Below are positions 28,960 to 35,091 of a stretch of 35,091 nt of DNA, one piece after another. The stretch's first letter is position 1. Every line of letters begins with the position of its first letter. Made by a program: the position numbers and the translations under genes. The notes beneath the pieces are model-generated. The model did not search any database. It was not told where the DNA came from and worked only from the letters and a program-made list of their open reading frames with translations. This stretch comes from Hyphomicrobiales bacterium (lineage in GTDB: Bacteria > Pseudomonadota > Alphaproteobacteria > Rhizobiales > Methyloligellaceae): the NCBI GenBank assembly GCA_021775575.1, contig JAJFHO010000088.1, positions 1 through 35,091 of the forward strand, written 5' to 3'.

Positions 28960-30318
28960 TTACCGCGCAGAGCTGAATGACAAGCTGGCCTCATCGCATG
29001 AGGCACAGTAGAGAACGTCCATCTTTTCATGCACTGTTTTCCTTTCAGTCTTGTATCTCGGATAATAAGATACATCTCCGTGCGACAATCTCTTATCCAT
29101 GACCTCGACTTTTACGGTCTTTTCTTCATGACGCGTTTTCCATGTGACCGTTGCCCCACATACCGGGCACAGTTCGATCTTTTGCGCCGCCTCTCGGGAC
29201 AATGTTCGGATTTGTGATGTGTTTTTTGCGAGCAGGCCTTGAATGTCCTTGCCCTTGTCCAAACGCCTAAGCGCGGCGTCAAGCAGAAACCCGGGACTAT
29301 CGTTTGCTGCCGCGATGACATTTGTTTTCAGACGAATATGCTCAAACAGATTTGTCGCGGCTGATATGCTGTCGCAATGGCGGATCAGTTCGCGATAGAC
29401 CGTATCGACGCCGTTTTGGGATTCGGTCTTGGTTGTTGCGTCTGGATCAGTATTCTTGTCGCTTCCATCCAAGCTTGATGGTTTGTCCGGTTTTTCTTCT
29501 TTCGTGCCCAGCCATTCGCGCACCGCTGGATTGGCAAGCTCCATAATGGCTTCATCGGAATTTTGTTCGACAAGGACGGCAAAAACCGCCTCGGCGTGGG
29601 GGAGACGCTTCCAGCATAACAGCCGGTCGGCGGCAAGCCGACGCGTCGCCTCACGATCGGCAAAAACCGCGATAAACAGCAGGATATCAGGCGACTTGAT
29701 GGTATCGACGACCCAGGCAATATCCTGATCATCGCCATCTTTCCAAACCGCTTCGTCGACACTCTTCAGGATCAGCCGCCAGACGCCTTCGGCCGGTTTG
29801 TCCAGCATCCTGGAGGCCTTTACCCTTAGAGCACGGTGGCGACCGTCGACAAATTCTTGCAGCAACGGTTCGGGGAACAGCTCCATGGTCTGTGCAATCA
29901 ATTCCGGAGCGCATCTGATTTTTATTGGTATGAGCAGGTCTTCGCTGGCCATCCGATCAAGAATATGAGCCTTCAATACATCATCGGACCGTCCGTGTCT
30001 GGCCAGTAATGCCATGAGGAATCTGGCGATAGATTCTTGGTCGCAAAGAAGGGGGATCGCTGTAAGACGTTCGGCAGCTTTCAGCCGAAGGTTACCGGGA
30101 ACCGATATTGCCGCTTCAAATGTCGGGCGATGCAACAGCCCCGCAAGCCTCATCCTGTCAAAAAGATCGCTCTGATCGTTCAAGGCAAAATCATACAACA
30201 CGTGCTCATCCACCGACCCCTGTATCCGTTTCCAGCGCTTGGCGGGCTTATAGGGCTCGTGCCAAGGCAGCAAATAATCGTGAAACAAAATGGCGGCTTT
30301 CGTTAGCGCTTTCCTCAT
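28960..30318 (-). CDS. Helical-repeat protein with C-terminal zinc ribbon
   Basis: 452 aa, unknown function. Residues about 60-270 are a chain of amphipathic helices (LRLKAAERLTAIPLL, PEPLLQEFVDGRHRALRVKA, DREATRRLAADRLLCWKRLP) that resemble HEAT-type repeats. A low-complexity acidic linker follows (KPSSLDGSDKNTDPDATTK). The C-terminus has a two-part CxxC zinc ribbon (CPVCG and later YCASCDEA) separated by about 50 charged residues, some possibly forming a hairpin. Its start overlaps the WD40 gene stop by four bases, so the two are translationally coupled. A scaffold or substrate adaptor for the neighbouring AAA ATPase is plausible. Confidence 0.75.
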   Translation of the reverse strand: MRKALTKAAILFHDYLLPWHEPYKPAKRWKRIQGSVDEHVLYDFALNDQSDLFDRMRLAGLLHRPTFEAAISVPGNLRLKAAERLTAIPLLCDQESIARFLMALLARHGRSDDVLKAHILDRMASEDLLIPIKIRCAPELIAQTMELFPEPLLQEFVDGRHRALRVKASRMLDKPAEGVWRLILKSVDEAVWKDGDDQDIAWVVDTIKSPDILLFIAVFADREATRRLAADRLLCWKRLPHAEAVFAVLVEQNSDEAIMELANPAVREWLGTKEEKPDKPSSLDGSDKNTDPDATTKTESQNGVDTVYRELIRHCDSISAATNLFEHIRLKTNVIAAANDSPGFLLDAALRRLDKGKDIQGLLAKNTSQIRTLSREAAQKIELCPVCGATVTWKTRHEEKTVKVEVMDKRLSHGDVSYYPRYKTERKTVHEKMDVLYCASCDEASLSFSSAR

Positions 30319-32651
30319 GTCTTATGTTCCAGAGCCTTGGGATGTGCTGTTCCAATTCGCAGGGCATCCTCCAACTTCATTTGTTCTCTGATGGTAAGGT
30401 ATTGACAATAGGCCTGGCTGCCGGTGACACCGGCCATGACGAGTTCGCGCTTGTTGTGTTCTGCGAGGAACTCCTCCCGCTCTTGTTGAAAAATTGGTTT
30501 CCCGTGATCCCCGGAGTTGGCTGCGTCTTTCTTCAATACACCGATTACAGAGGTGCCTTCCGCCCAAAAAGCCCCCGAGCCGTCGTGAAGAAACCAAACG
30601 GGGTTCGCTTCAATACAATAAAAATTAGCGCATAGATTACCGTTTTCCGTATCCCGGAATTCAATTGGCCCCACTCTCGGTTTAGCAACAAATCGCCTGC
30701 CGTCACCGATGAAACCACCGGCGGAGTAGGACATATCCCGCTTTTGGTTTTCGACTCTCATGCGCATGGTCAAATCAGGAAGAGTAACGGCAAGAGTGGC
30801 ATAGTGTCGGGTCTCGTAATCCGTCAATCCCGTAATCCAAGCCTCTTGGCTATCTGGGCTGAAGTGAACAGTATCGACCTTTACTAGCGGAAGCGGTGCT
30901 TCCTTTTCCACCGCGAGCGTCTCGGCGTTACACAACACTAAATTTCCACCGTCAATGAAGAGAATCCATCGCCCATCCGGACTAAATCCATAGTGGCTTG
31001 CCCGCGCATTCAATCCCGAAACCGCTGCAAGCTGCTCATCAGCGATGTCGCAAACCGCCAGGGAACCGCGGTCGATTGAAACCAGAAGCCGTCCGTCCGG
31101 GGAAAGCAGAATGGGAGAGCCGGATTGCTTGATCTGCCCAAAAGGCAACGAGGCGACCTTCTCGAAAGGATCCAGGCGAAAGATATTCGTGACTTCGCCG
31201 TCGCTGCAAACAAAGTGTGCAGACGCGGCATCGAATCCAAATGAGATGTCATGCCATCCTGAAATGCCCAGGCCAAATTCCGGCGTATCCTCGGCAATCC
31301 CCTGCCCGCGGATCACATCGAACAATTCAATAGTATTCCATTTCAATGCAAGGTACCGACCGTCCGGCGAAAGCAATATTCGGAATTCGCTCGAAATATA
31401 ACCGGTGTAGAGGCGCTTCTTCCAAAAGCAACGGCCGGTTTCTAGATCGTAACATTCGAGATATAAGCCAGGCTTCGCATCTTGTGGTCGTCGAAAACCC
31501 ACACTTGCCAAGACGCTATTTGAGCAGGCGCAGGCGTCCTCGAAAATGGTGACCTGTCGAACACCGAAAAAGTCGTTATGGAAATGCGCCACTTGGAATT
31601 CGGTCAACCGCGCCTGATACTCCCCGGTATCCCGTGCGTCTATCGCGGTACGCAACGGCAGCCAATTCATGAGCGGCTTATGTAAGCGCAGACTAAATTC
31701 GCCCACATCCATCAGCAACCGGCCATCCTGCCAGGAATGGATTGTTGCGCTTGTTGCGCTGACGGCAGCTTCATCGGGCTTTACGGCAAGATATTGTATT
31801 GGCGAGCCGAAATGCGCATAGATTCCGTGAGGTACCTTTTCCCGCAGCAACCGGGGTGGCTCGCGGCGAGGCCGAAGGGTTTGTTCCCATTGGTTGTAGG
31901 TATAACCCAAATTGCGTTCATTGCCGTTACTTGTCTCCAGCATGACCGTGTCGGCATCCAGCCAGCCGCAATATCTGAGTTCCGACATTTCTTGATGAAA
32001 AAGCACCGATCCGTCCTGCGGATCCAATTCGGCAAGTCCAACACCGTAGCACCAGATTAAAAGCCGGTTTTGTTCTTCAAGAAACTCTACACGCACCGAG
32101 CGCATCACACTGCCGGGCTCAGTCTTTGCCAGGGGAAACGGCGTTTGCCAGACAATCGTCAGGGACGGCACACTTAGACAGTAGATCATTCCATCACCAG
32201 TGGTTACGACAACGCGATCCGGGGCAATCGGCAACGCTGGATCCGATGACAGTTTTGCCTCAAACACGGCTGTCTGCCGGCTGGGAACACCTGATTGAAT
32301 ATCAAAAAGCTGCAATTGCCTTTCTTTGGTGCTGGTGAGCAGTGTCGTATCCGATTGCAGAAAAACCGGTGATCCCATCAGATGATCTGACCCGGCATGA
32401 AACCGCCTGACGAAATGGTGCTGATGAATATGCCAAACATCAATCCCCTTCCCATGGCGGATAGCGATCCATTTCTGGTTTTCCGACAATGCCAGAGATG
32501 CATTGAATGAGATCAGATGGCAGGAGCCATTTTCCAGCGCATAGGTTGACCTTTGGCTGTGTTTCAGGAGCACCTCGAACAGGGGCTGCTTTGCGACGTC
32601 CAGCGCGTAAAGCCGGTTTTGCGTAATTACTGTGTTTTCTTCTTTTTCCAT
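30315..32651 (-). CDS. Large WD40/beta-propeller-like protein
   Basis: About 778 aa from ATG (a GTG four codons upstream, 32663, is possible). The sequence is a series of beta-propeller blades with repeated S-P-D-G-R turns (LLSPDGRYLALKW, LLSPDGRLLVSID, GFSPDGRWILFID, HFSPDSQEAWITG) and intermediate blades such as LALSENQKWIAIRHGKGIDV, probably two propellers. No signal peptide or membrane span is seen, so it is cytoplasmic. The last 60 residues (FQQEREEFLAEHNKRELVMA...) are helical. It starts 22 bases after the Clp-like gene and is likely the recognition platform of the system. Confidence 0.8.
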   Translation of the reverse strand: MEKEENTVITQNRLYALDVAKQPLFEVLLKHSQRSTYALENGSCHLISFNASLALSENQKWIAIRHGKGIDVWHIHQHHFVRRFHAGSDHLMGSPVFLQSDTTLLTSTKERQLQLFDIQSGVPSRQTAVFEAKLSSDPALPIAPDRVVVTTGDGMIYCLSVPSLTIVWQTPFPLAKTEPGSVMRSVRVEFLEEQNRLLIWCYGVGLAELDPQDGSVLFHQEMSELRYCGWLDADTVMLETSNGNERNLGYTYNQWEQTLRPRREPPRLLREKVPHGIYAHFGSPIQYLAVKPDEAAVSATSATIHSWQDGRLLMDVGEFSLRLHKPLMNWLPLRTAIDARDTGEYQARLTEFQVAHFHNDFFGVRQVTIFEDACACSNSVLASVGFRRPQDAKPGLYLECYDLETGRCFWKKRLYTGYISSEFRILLSPDGRYLALKWNTIELFDVIRGQGIAEDTPEFGLGISGWHDISFGFDAASAHFVCSDGEVTNIFRLDPFEKVASLPFGQIKQSGSPILLSPDGRLLVSIDRGSLAVCDIADEQLAAVSGLNARASHYGFSPDGRWILFIDGGNLVLCNAETLAVEKEAPLPLVKVDTVHFSPDSQEAWITGLTDYETRHYATLAVTLPDLTMRMRVENQKRDMSYSAGGFIGDGRRFVAKPRVGPIEFRDTENGNLCANFYCIEANPVWFLHDGSGAFWAEGTSVIGVLKKDAANSGDHGKPIFQQEREEFLAEHNKRELVMAGVTGSQAYCQYLTIREQMKLEDALRIGTAHPKALEHKT

Positions 32652-32673
32652 GCGCTCTTTCACTTTCGCCGGA

Positions 32674-34761
32674 CTACGACACCGCCTGATAATGCGATGC
32701 CATCAATAGAGTTTCCACAGCCTTTCGTATCGCCCGTTTCGCCGCCCGTGCATCGCGCCGTGATCCTAGTTGCTTGAGAATGATCTGAACGATCGTCTCC
32801 GTTTCGGTGTTGCCTACGAGATTCGCATAGGTATTAAGCTCTTCTCTGATGATGCACGACAAGGCTTCGTCATCCAGGTTTTCAAAAATCAGAACATCAT
32901 CGAAGCGGTTCAAAAATTCGACTCTGAAATGCTCGCCAAGAGCTTCCCGAGGATCGATTTCTCTGGAATCTATAGAAAACCCGATTGGATTTTTCGAAAG
33001 ATCATCGGATTGCAAGACGTTTGTCGTGGCTATGAACACACAACCTCTGGCGTCCAACCGGTAACCCGATGCTGTGGTCACGGTGCCGTGGTCCAGCAAT
33101 CCCAGTGCCATATCCATGATATCGGGATGCGCCTTTTCGATCTCATCGAATAGCAGGACTCCCTCAGGATGCGCATCCAGGAAGGTTGGCAGCAAACCGT
33201 GCTCCCCCATGCCAGACAAACCTGGAGAACCCAAGATTTTCGTGACGCTGAGAGAAGAGTTATATTCCCCCAAATCCAGATGCAGACATTGCTTGGCGTC
33301 ACCGAAAAATACTGTTGCAATGCTCTTTGCGAGCGATGTCTTGCCGACGCCACTGCCGCCAGCGAACAGGAACGAAAGCGGTCGCAGGATTTGTGTGTTG
33401 TCCATCAGCTTGCGCATTGCAAACGTCCTGGAAACTGTCTCGACGACGTTTATTTGCCCCAGAGTTTTTTGGCTGAGTTGCTCGGTAAGATTGCGCGCCT
33501 CAGACGCGAGATCGCTAGAATGGCTGACCTTCCCGCCCATGGGGCCAAATGCCTCGCGCAGATCTTTTTTCCAGATCTGGATGCGTCCTCCGGCGGTAAT
33601 TTTTGCGGCGATGGTATCCAGAAGATCAATTGTCTTGTCCGGTTGCTGCCTGTTCGGCAGAAAACGGTTGGTTAGGTCAATCGCTTCCCCAATGCATCCA
33701 GTCTCAAAGTTGACACCATGAGACCGTGCCAGAGTGTCGATCTGCCGTTCGATCATACGGCAGGTTAAATCGGCATCCGGTTCTGTAAGCTTGATCTCTT
33801 CGAAACGCCGCGCCAGGGCCGGATCGCGCAAGATATAGCGGCGATAGTCTTCAGACGTGGTTGCGCCGATTACCCGGAGATCGCCTCGCGCCAGATGCGG
33901 TTTCAAAATATTGGCGGCGTCCATGGCGCTCTCAGATGTCCGCCCGGCACCCCATAGAAGATGAACCTCGTCAATAAACAGAATAACCGGCTTGCAAAGC
34001 TCGACTTCGGTAATTACTTGCTCCAGCCGCTCTTCGAACATGCCCCGGTATTGAGTGCCGGCAAGAAGCGAGCTCATACGAACTTCAAACAGCTTTATTC
34101 GCGGGAACGTGGCTTCCAGTACACCTCCTGCCAGTTCATTTGCCAGGTATTCGACCAGTGCCGTCTTTCCCGCACCCGCGGGACCGGTGATGATGACGTT
34201 ACCCTTACGGCTTTTGCGCAGGATATTCAGCATCTGCTCAAAAGCGGGTGAGCGTTTCACTAACCCCTCAAATTCGCCTCGCCGGGCACACTCAAGAAGG
34301 TCGCGACCATTGCGAGCCAAATGCTTTGGGGCTTGCGCCGCGTTTTCTTGAATGATCGTCAGCACGCGCTGCCTTTTTTCAGCCTCGCATTGCAGTACAA
34401 TCTCGTCGGGGTTTACGGCGTATTCTTCGAACAGACCTCTCAACGCACCGCTGCTGGCAGAGATGCAATCGCGCAAAAACATAAACGTGCTCACAGCATC
34501 CAAATCTTTCGTCTGCGAGATGTATTGCAAAATCCATGGATCGCCATTCGAATGGGGCCTTTGCACCATTGCTTCAAGATCACCTTTGAACGGATCGAGT
34601 TCGACATTCTGGCTAACCAACATTTCGGCCAAAACATTTGGCGCGGGCTGCTTCAACCAGTAATACAGCAAGGATGCAGCTGACAGAGAGCCCGCCGGCT
34701 CCTGTGCCAGAAAAGCTTCAAGCAACTCTTTGAAGGGATGAAACTCTTCACTCATGGTCAT
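32674..34761 (-). CDS. Two-domain AAA+ Clp ATPase (ClpA/ClpB-like)
   Basis: About 695 aa; possible starts TTG 34764, ATG 34761 and ATG 34755. A divergent helical N-terminal domain (1-165) replaces the usual Clp_N repeats. AAA-1: Walker A GPAGAGKT (194-201), Walker B ILFIDE (261-266), pore-loop region AGTQYRGMFEERL (235-247), Arg fingers near DPALARRFEEI (314-324). AAA-2: Walker A GGSGVGKT (469-476), Walker B VLLFDE (536-541), sensor ATTN (579-582) and arginine finger region VEFLNRFDDV (615-624). The roughly 35 residues between the domains leave no room for the ClpB M domain, so it is not a classic disaggregase. NPIGFSID (592-599) aligns with the ClpP-docking IGL loop of ClpA. It lies in an operon with propeller, helical and small proteins. 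Confidence 0.9.
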   Translation of the reverse strand: MTMSEEFHPFKELLEAFLAQEPAGSLSAASLLYYWLKQPAPNVLAEMLVSQNVELDPFKGDLEAMVQRPHSNGDPWILQYISQTKDLDAVSTFMFLRDCISASSGALRGLFEEYAVNPDEIVLQCEAEKRQRVLTIIQENAAQAPKHLARNGRDLLECARRGEFEGLVKRSPAFEQMLNILRKSRKGNVIITGPAGAGKTALVEYLANELAGGVLEATFPRIKLFEVRMSSLLAGTQYRGMFEERLEQVITEVELCKPVILFIDEVHLLWGAGRTSESAMDAANILKPHLARGDLRVIGATTSEDYRRYILRDPALARRFEEIKLTEPDADLTCRMIERQIDTLARSHGVNFETGCIGEAIDLTNRFLPNRQQPDKTIDLLDTIAAKITAGGRIQIWKKDLREAFGPMGGKVSHSSDLASEARNLTEQLSQKTLGQINVVETVSRTFAMRKLMDNTQILRPLSFLFAGGSGVGKTSLAKSIATVFFGDAKQCLHLDLGEYNSSLSVTKILGSPGLSGMGEHGLLPTFLDAHPEGVLLFDEIEKAHPDIMDMALGLLDHGTVTTASGYRLDARGCVFIATTNVLQSDDLSKNPIGFSIDSREIDPREALGEHFRVEFLNRFDDVLIFENLDDEALSCIIREELNTYANLVGNTETETIVQIILKQLGSRRDARAAKRAIRKAVETLLMASHYQAVS

Positions 34762-34816
34762 CAATCCTGCGTTCCAATCAGGTGCTCAACGCCTGGCGCA
34801 TCTCGCGCGTTACGGC

Positions 34817-35077
34817 CTATTCCGCCTCCTCAAAAACACGCTTCACTCGCTTGCCCATTTCTTCACTCGCCTGATTGGCCAGAACATCAAGCATTCTGTC
34901 CTTGTGGCGATACTTTGTAGTCAGCACCTCACCGGCGCCCATGGCGGCGTCGGCGCCGGTGTTCCAGTAATGCGCCAGAACGCGGCGCTCTGAGTCCGTG
35001 AAATTTATGGTGTTCTGCAGCCTGTTGGCCCAGTCGAAAAGCTCTCGAATGCGAATGCCATGTTTGAAGAGCGCCAT
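34817..35077 (-). CDS. Small helical protein, first visible gene of the Clp operon
   Basis: 86 aa, highly charged and predicted helical (LFDWANRLQNTINFTDSERR, HKDRMLDVLANQASEEMGKR). No family is recognised. GAGAAG lies nine bases before the ATG, at the very edge of the window, so more genes of the operon may lie beyond. It starts 53 bases before the Clp-like gene on the same strand. It could be a substrate, adaptor or toxin-like component; nothing in the sequence decides this. Confidence 0.65.
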   Translation of the reverse strand: MALFKHGIRIRELFDWANRLQNTINFTDSERRVLAHYWNTGADAAMGAGEVLTTKYRHKDRMLDVLANQASEEMGKRVKRVFEEAE

Positions 35078-35091
35078 TTGCTTGACTTCTC

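Follow-up and report, generated by a model that had tools for sequence, protein, structure and literature searches.

Does a Clp/Hsp100 ATPase that carries an IGF tripeptide and has no M domain hand its substrates to ClpP, and is that what sets it apart? The question is raised by a gene near the end of a 35,091-nt stretch of DNA from a Hyphomicrobiales bacterium (the window). The gene and its parts are as follows.

32674..34764, minus strand: Clp/Hsp100 double-ring ATPase (N domain, D1 and D2; no M domain), from the open reading frame, Pfam, an AlphaFold model and a fold search
34333..34755, minus strand: divergent N domain, modelled by AlphaFold as eight helices
33208..33225, minus strand: altered D2 pore-1 loop PGLSGM, residues 514–519, replacing PPGYVG (alignments)
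32977..32985, minus strand: IGF tripeptide, residues 594–596, a putative ClpP-docking loop (alignments, codon mapping and motif survey)
32674..32766, minus strand: sensor-2 segment of D2 together with the shortened C-terminus (length measured from the G of GSR)

As listed, the minus-strand reading frame has 696 codons from TTG 34764, and its translation contains ATTNVLQSDDLSKNPIGFSIDSREIDPREALGEHFRVEFLNRFD. Comparison with an orthologue at locus L009, in a Lysobacterales MAG (G745), makes ATG 34755 the more likely start, for a protein of about 693 residues. Pfam matches to AAA and AAA_2 mark two AAA+ modules; read by eye, D1 and D2 each retain the Walker A and Walker B motifs, sensor 1 and the arginine-finger segment, and both ATPase sites look intact. 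The D1 pore loop, QYRG, is also intact. The linker between D1 and D2 spans only 35 residues, compared with 41 in the ClpA proteins of the window's genome, G745 and Escherichia coli, 98–99 in two ClpC-like comparison rows and 159 in two ClpB rows (where rows were unannotated, the labels ClpA, ClpB, ClpC and ClpK were assigned in the present analysis). The protein therefore has no M domain, as the initial annotation had claimed. Membership of the ClpB/TssH group, which has an M domain and no docking tripeptide, was considered and ruled out by the short linker together with IGF.

The initial annotation had also placed IGF within positions 32905–33010, at the site of the ClpA docking loop. Its codons lie at 32985–32977, and it shares alignment columns with IGF in the ClpA of the same genome (contig C153), IGF in the ClpA of G745 and IGL in E. 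coli ClpA, one residue farther from sensor 1 than the tripeptide of ClpA. The further statement that ClpB and ClpV lack this element agrees with the comparison rows: the tripeptide is absent from three of three ClpB-like rows and from the single TssH/ClpV row, and the ClpB-type proteins of both genomes are without it. A ClpK row (ClpK_Kp), with AGL under a looser pattern, was counted neither with nor without. Given the composition of the protein, a tripeptide fitting [ILVM]G[FLYIM] has a chance of 0.0047 of falling at one exact position and of 0.13 of falling anywhere in a random 30-residue stretch; the weight is carried by the exact placement of IGF and its retention at L009, not by its mere presence in the sequence. 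Conservation among orthologues holds for the one that was found (1/1, 62% identity over the Clp proteins), so it concerns two sequences. In that pair NPIGF is identical, with two of its five codons synonymously changed, and the following eight residues all differ. Within the limits of two sequences, this pattern fits a binding motif retained in a loose loop. AlphaFold models the loop, at low confidence, as coil and not as helix or strand, with a pLDDT of 69 for residues 581–590 and 53 for residues 591–600.

How ordinary such a loop is can be judged from viral relatives. We surveyed the best 80 of at least 484 confirmed Clp ATPases on viral contigs, 41 of which entered the structure alignment. 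The docking tripeptide occupies the exact columns in 79 of these 80: in 46/46 with linkers of 50 residues or fewer and in 33/34 with longer ones. Among the same 80, the sole protein without it is encoded at L124, 2462–4573. The loop is also described as a marker that tells ClpC from ClpB, in the parts of that report consulted (PMC10149685). Because viral relatives carry the tripeptide almost universally and the ClpB-like and TssH rows do not, IGF is the expected ClpA/ClpC signature; the missing M domain is likewise typical of ClpA, so neither feature is surprising, and the docking tripeptide by itself is textbook. One viral contig (IMGVR_UViG_3300035698_012105) encodes a single-ring Clp of 415 residues at L066, 5545–6792 on the plus strand, consisting of the N-terminal part and D1 only; its final three residues are LGF, as if a ClpP-docking tripeptide had shifted to the C-terminus.

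Both genomes contain a high-scoring clpP that shares its contig with a ClpX-type gene about 1 kb or less away, and a candidate partner for the IGF loop is therefore available. The proposal that the enzyme feeds ClpP or another barrel survives in its first half: docking onto ClpP is the most straightforward interpretation, whereas nothing points to another barrel. On sequence grounds, ClpP docking is the best-supported reading, probable and ordinary for such an architecture. The unusual features are others: the D2 pore, the short C-terminus and the surrounding operon, which the initial annotation passes over, and a long branch in trees.

In place of the GYVG of ClpA, the D2 pore-1 loop of both the window's protein and its L009 orthologue reads GLSG (PGLSG), with one residue deleted. 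The pattern G[YF][VI]G is present in all 80 of the best 80 (of at least 484) viral relatives and in ten ClpA-type reference rows. The sections consulted of a study of ClpA describe the pore-1 tyrosine as contacting substrate and translocating it, and term D2 the principal motor (PMC9663308). The C-terminus is short as well: from the sensor-2 GSR to the end there are 30 residues in the window's protein and 35 at L009, compared with 59–60 in ClpA from E. coli and from G745, 122 in ClpA from the window's own genome and 50–53 in ClpB, TssH and ClpC-like rows. A tail of similar length (29 residues) occurs in one of the best 80 of at least 484 viral Clps.

Placement in a family is loose. The best NCBIfam match is ClpA (TIGR02639) at 384.6 bits, far below the cut-off of 993.15, with ClpB at 366.2 and TssH at 362.6, and identity to the ClpA of the same genome is 35% over 494 residues. 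In trees built without the docking-loop columns, the window's protein and its orthologue form a separate long branch (the C278 Clp described below and IMGVR_L049 were omitted from both trees, TssH and phage RaK2 from the second). Constraining the pair to group with ClpA (p-AU 0.255), with two ClpC-like rows (0.161) or with two ClpB rows (0.121) was not rejected. The AlphaFold model (mean pLDDT 82.5, pTM 0.52, 43-row alignment) has as its top fold match a ClpC complex, 9a66_A, an integrative model (Z 31.9, r.m.s.d. 10.2, 669 residues aligned), followed by ClpC 9if4_D (Z 30.9, r.m.s.d. 5.8, 535 residues), ClpA 7uiy_D (Z 30.6, r.m.s.d. 6.2, 539 residues) and ClpB 6qs4_B (Z 30.4, r.m.s.d. 6.2, 540 residues); for this model, the search leaves ClpA and ClpB tied, with ClpC chains leading. 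Some ClpA, ClpC, ClpB and Hsp104 chains align across the N domain with high r.m.s.d., and this part was barely tested by the fold search; the 25 Pfam families listed for the protein, out of 36, do not include Clp_N.

Set against known systems, the protein shares with ClpA (ClpAP) the two AAA+ rings, the short M-less linker, the IGF/IGL loop in register and, in the model, a helical N domain; it differs in the D2 pore and its deletion, the shortened C-terminus, the score below the ClpA cut-off and an operon with propeller and helical/zinc proteins. By its parts it looks like a ClpA-type unfoldase, but it is better not classed as ClpA. With ClpC and ClpI it shares the plan of a double-ring unfoldase whose LGF-type loop separates it from ClpB; according to the parts of that work consulted, those proteins have a short M domain, which is missing here, and ClpI is described from Actinomycetota, with the motif LGF in ClpIa and without it in ClpIb, so that extra Clp paralogues of either kind have a precedent (PMC10149685). 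ClpB and TssH/ClpV resemble it in the sequence and fold of D1 and D2, and the rows examined differ in having a long, M-domain linker and no tripeptide.

The window and L009 share the gene order gene B, Clp, propeller protein, helical/zinc protein. The neighbours of the Clp gene in the window are as follows.

34817..35089, minus strand: gene B, C-terminal 90 residues, HEAT-like by eye; 81% identity to L009 gene B
30315..32663, minus strand: beta-propeller-like protein, 782 residues as listed; 61% identity to its L009 counterpart, with weak propeller Pfam matches
28960..30318, minus strand: helical protein (gene 3), 452 residues, with a zinc-ribbon-like C-terminal CPxC...CxxC, from the open reading frame and comparison with L009

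The listed Clp and propeller reading frames are ten bases apart, and that of the propeller overlaps gene 3 by four bases. The window is exactly as long as its contig and gene B is cut off at the end, so the more upstream part of the operon is missing. L009 has an additional upstream gene A, coiled-coil-like by eye; a search of the window's genome, where the contig ends inside gene B, did not turn it up. The propeller assignment comes from Pfam matches that all fall under the cut-off. When aligned with its counterpart at L009 9586–11211, gene 3 of the window is missing about 90 residues, among them a DnaJ-type CxxCxGxG half zinc finger (at L009, Pfam E 0.00096, under the curated cut-off). The structure model of gene 3 is poor (pLDDT 42). 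Pfam reported no peptidase family and no vWA domain for the operon genes scanned. PADLOC matched Clp to DolB and others, a link to defence systems that we set aside because the AAA+ domain they have in common is its simplest explanation; for the other operon proteins it returned nothing except a weak BrxC match (E 0.0029) to L009 gene A. In PHROGs, L009 gene 3 had matches that were all weak, the best at E 0.00015. The MoxR-vWA beta-propeller ternary systems also encode an AAA+ ATPase with propeller and repeat proteins, as far as the consulted portion of their description goes; there the ATPase is of the MoxR type and is accompanied by vWA, whereas here it is Clp-type with no vWA among the genes scanned (PMC7159879). 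The gene after the operon at L009 (11355–12443, plus strand) has a very weak likeness to translation GTPases (Pfam GTP_EFTU E 0.058, under cut-off).

The operon is rare: among the genomes searched, it was found in the window's genome and the Lysobacterales MAG only. The L009 protein is the sole Clp orthologue found, by a scan of genome contigs that depends on exact short peptides and that distant orthologues may escape. In five overlapping samples of 385, 299, 398, 369 and 30 genomes, full-length propeller matches occurred only in those two genomes, and the other matching genomes (8, 0, 3, 6 and 1, respectively) gave short, weak hits of at most 27 bits; a gene-3 profile run across 398 genomes matched G745 only. 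Plasmids gave no match to the propeller protein, L009 gene 3 or L009 gene B, phages none to L009 gene 3, and viral contigs none to gene 3 or the propeller protein. Clp itself matched 154 phage and 2,285 plasmid records, all below 60% identity. The titles and abstract openings searched, a scope that mostly excludes subscription literature, contained no description of the operon. Its G+C content is about 52%; when the rest of the window is cut into 14 bins of 2 kb, the first bin has 53% and the other 13 have 54–62%. The ClpA of the window's genome groups with an alphaproteobacterial ClpA (Shinella), and the L009 genome bears the name Lysobacterales. Transfer between lineages is suggested by the rarity of the operon, its lower G+C and its distant hosts, a reading of the sequences that is unproven because the 62% identity of the orthologues is on par with the 61% between the ClpA proteins of the two genomes. 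The assembly of the window's genome comprises 281 contigs, with contamination estimated at 4.45%.

What, then, might the enzyme do? On balance we favour a specialised ClpP-docking unfoldase of the ClpA/ClpC kind, with operon-encoded adaptors and D1 doing most of the pulling. A Clp hexamer would dock onto ordinary cellular ClpP through its IGF loops; substrates would be chosen by the divergent N domain, with the HEAT-like, propeller and helical/zinc proteins as adaptors, roles that we infer from gene order. Since D2 no longer has an aromatic residue for gripping, D1, with its QYRG loop, is probably the main gripper, and D2 would serve as an ATP-driven docking and gating ring. Going further, the operon might encode a dedicated AAA+ protease module, with D2 confined to ATP-driven docking and gating and with D1, together with the propeller and helical/zinc adaptors, selecting and pulling the substrate; this is speculative and unlikely.

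The lost D2 grip, in what is the principal motor ring of ClpA, could by analogy also mean that the protein no longer translocates into ClpP, and IGF could have been inherited without function. A ClpP-independent chaperone that keeps IGF as an ancestral remnant and remodels a complex of operon proteins, with no threading through D2, is thus possible, if doubtful. The pore aromatic is gone and a residue deleted in both copies, the C-terminus is shortened, the ClpA score is low and the partners are conserved in two genomes, one of them with the DnaJ-type half zinc finger at L009, all of which would suit it; a relic, however, would be unlikely to persist beside eight fully diverged residues, a consideration drawn from two sequences. 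That the genes stay together in two genomes would also be expected if the IGF loop docked onto a non-ClpP partner such as an operon-encoded protein, an idea we regard as improbable given a standard clpP in both genomes and no peptidase family among the operon genes scanned. As for an unremarkable duplicate of ClpA, the protein does have the domains of ClpA in the same order, its docking loop and a linker of similar length, but the low identity to the ClpA of its own genome, the separate long branch, the altered D2 pore and the conserved gene order make this very improbable.

The part worth following is the altered D2 pore within a rare conserved operon. A docking loop and two apparently intact ATPase sites combined with a non-aromatic D2 pore would make a natural test of the division of labour between the rings, and the operon could supply a new set of Clp adaptors. 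A separate case of an altered D2 pore is found on contig C278 of the window's genome, where L160 9945–13346 (plus strand) encodes a 1,133-residue Clp-type ATPase that has lost the D1 Walker B motif. Its D2 pore-1 GYVG is deleted, an LGF loop is present and its C-terminus carries a release-factor PCRF domain (Pfam E 1.1e-6).
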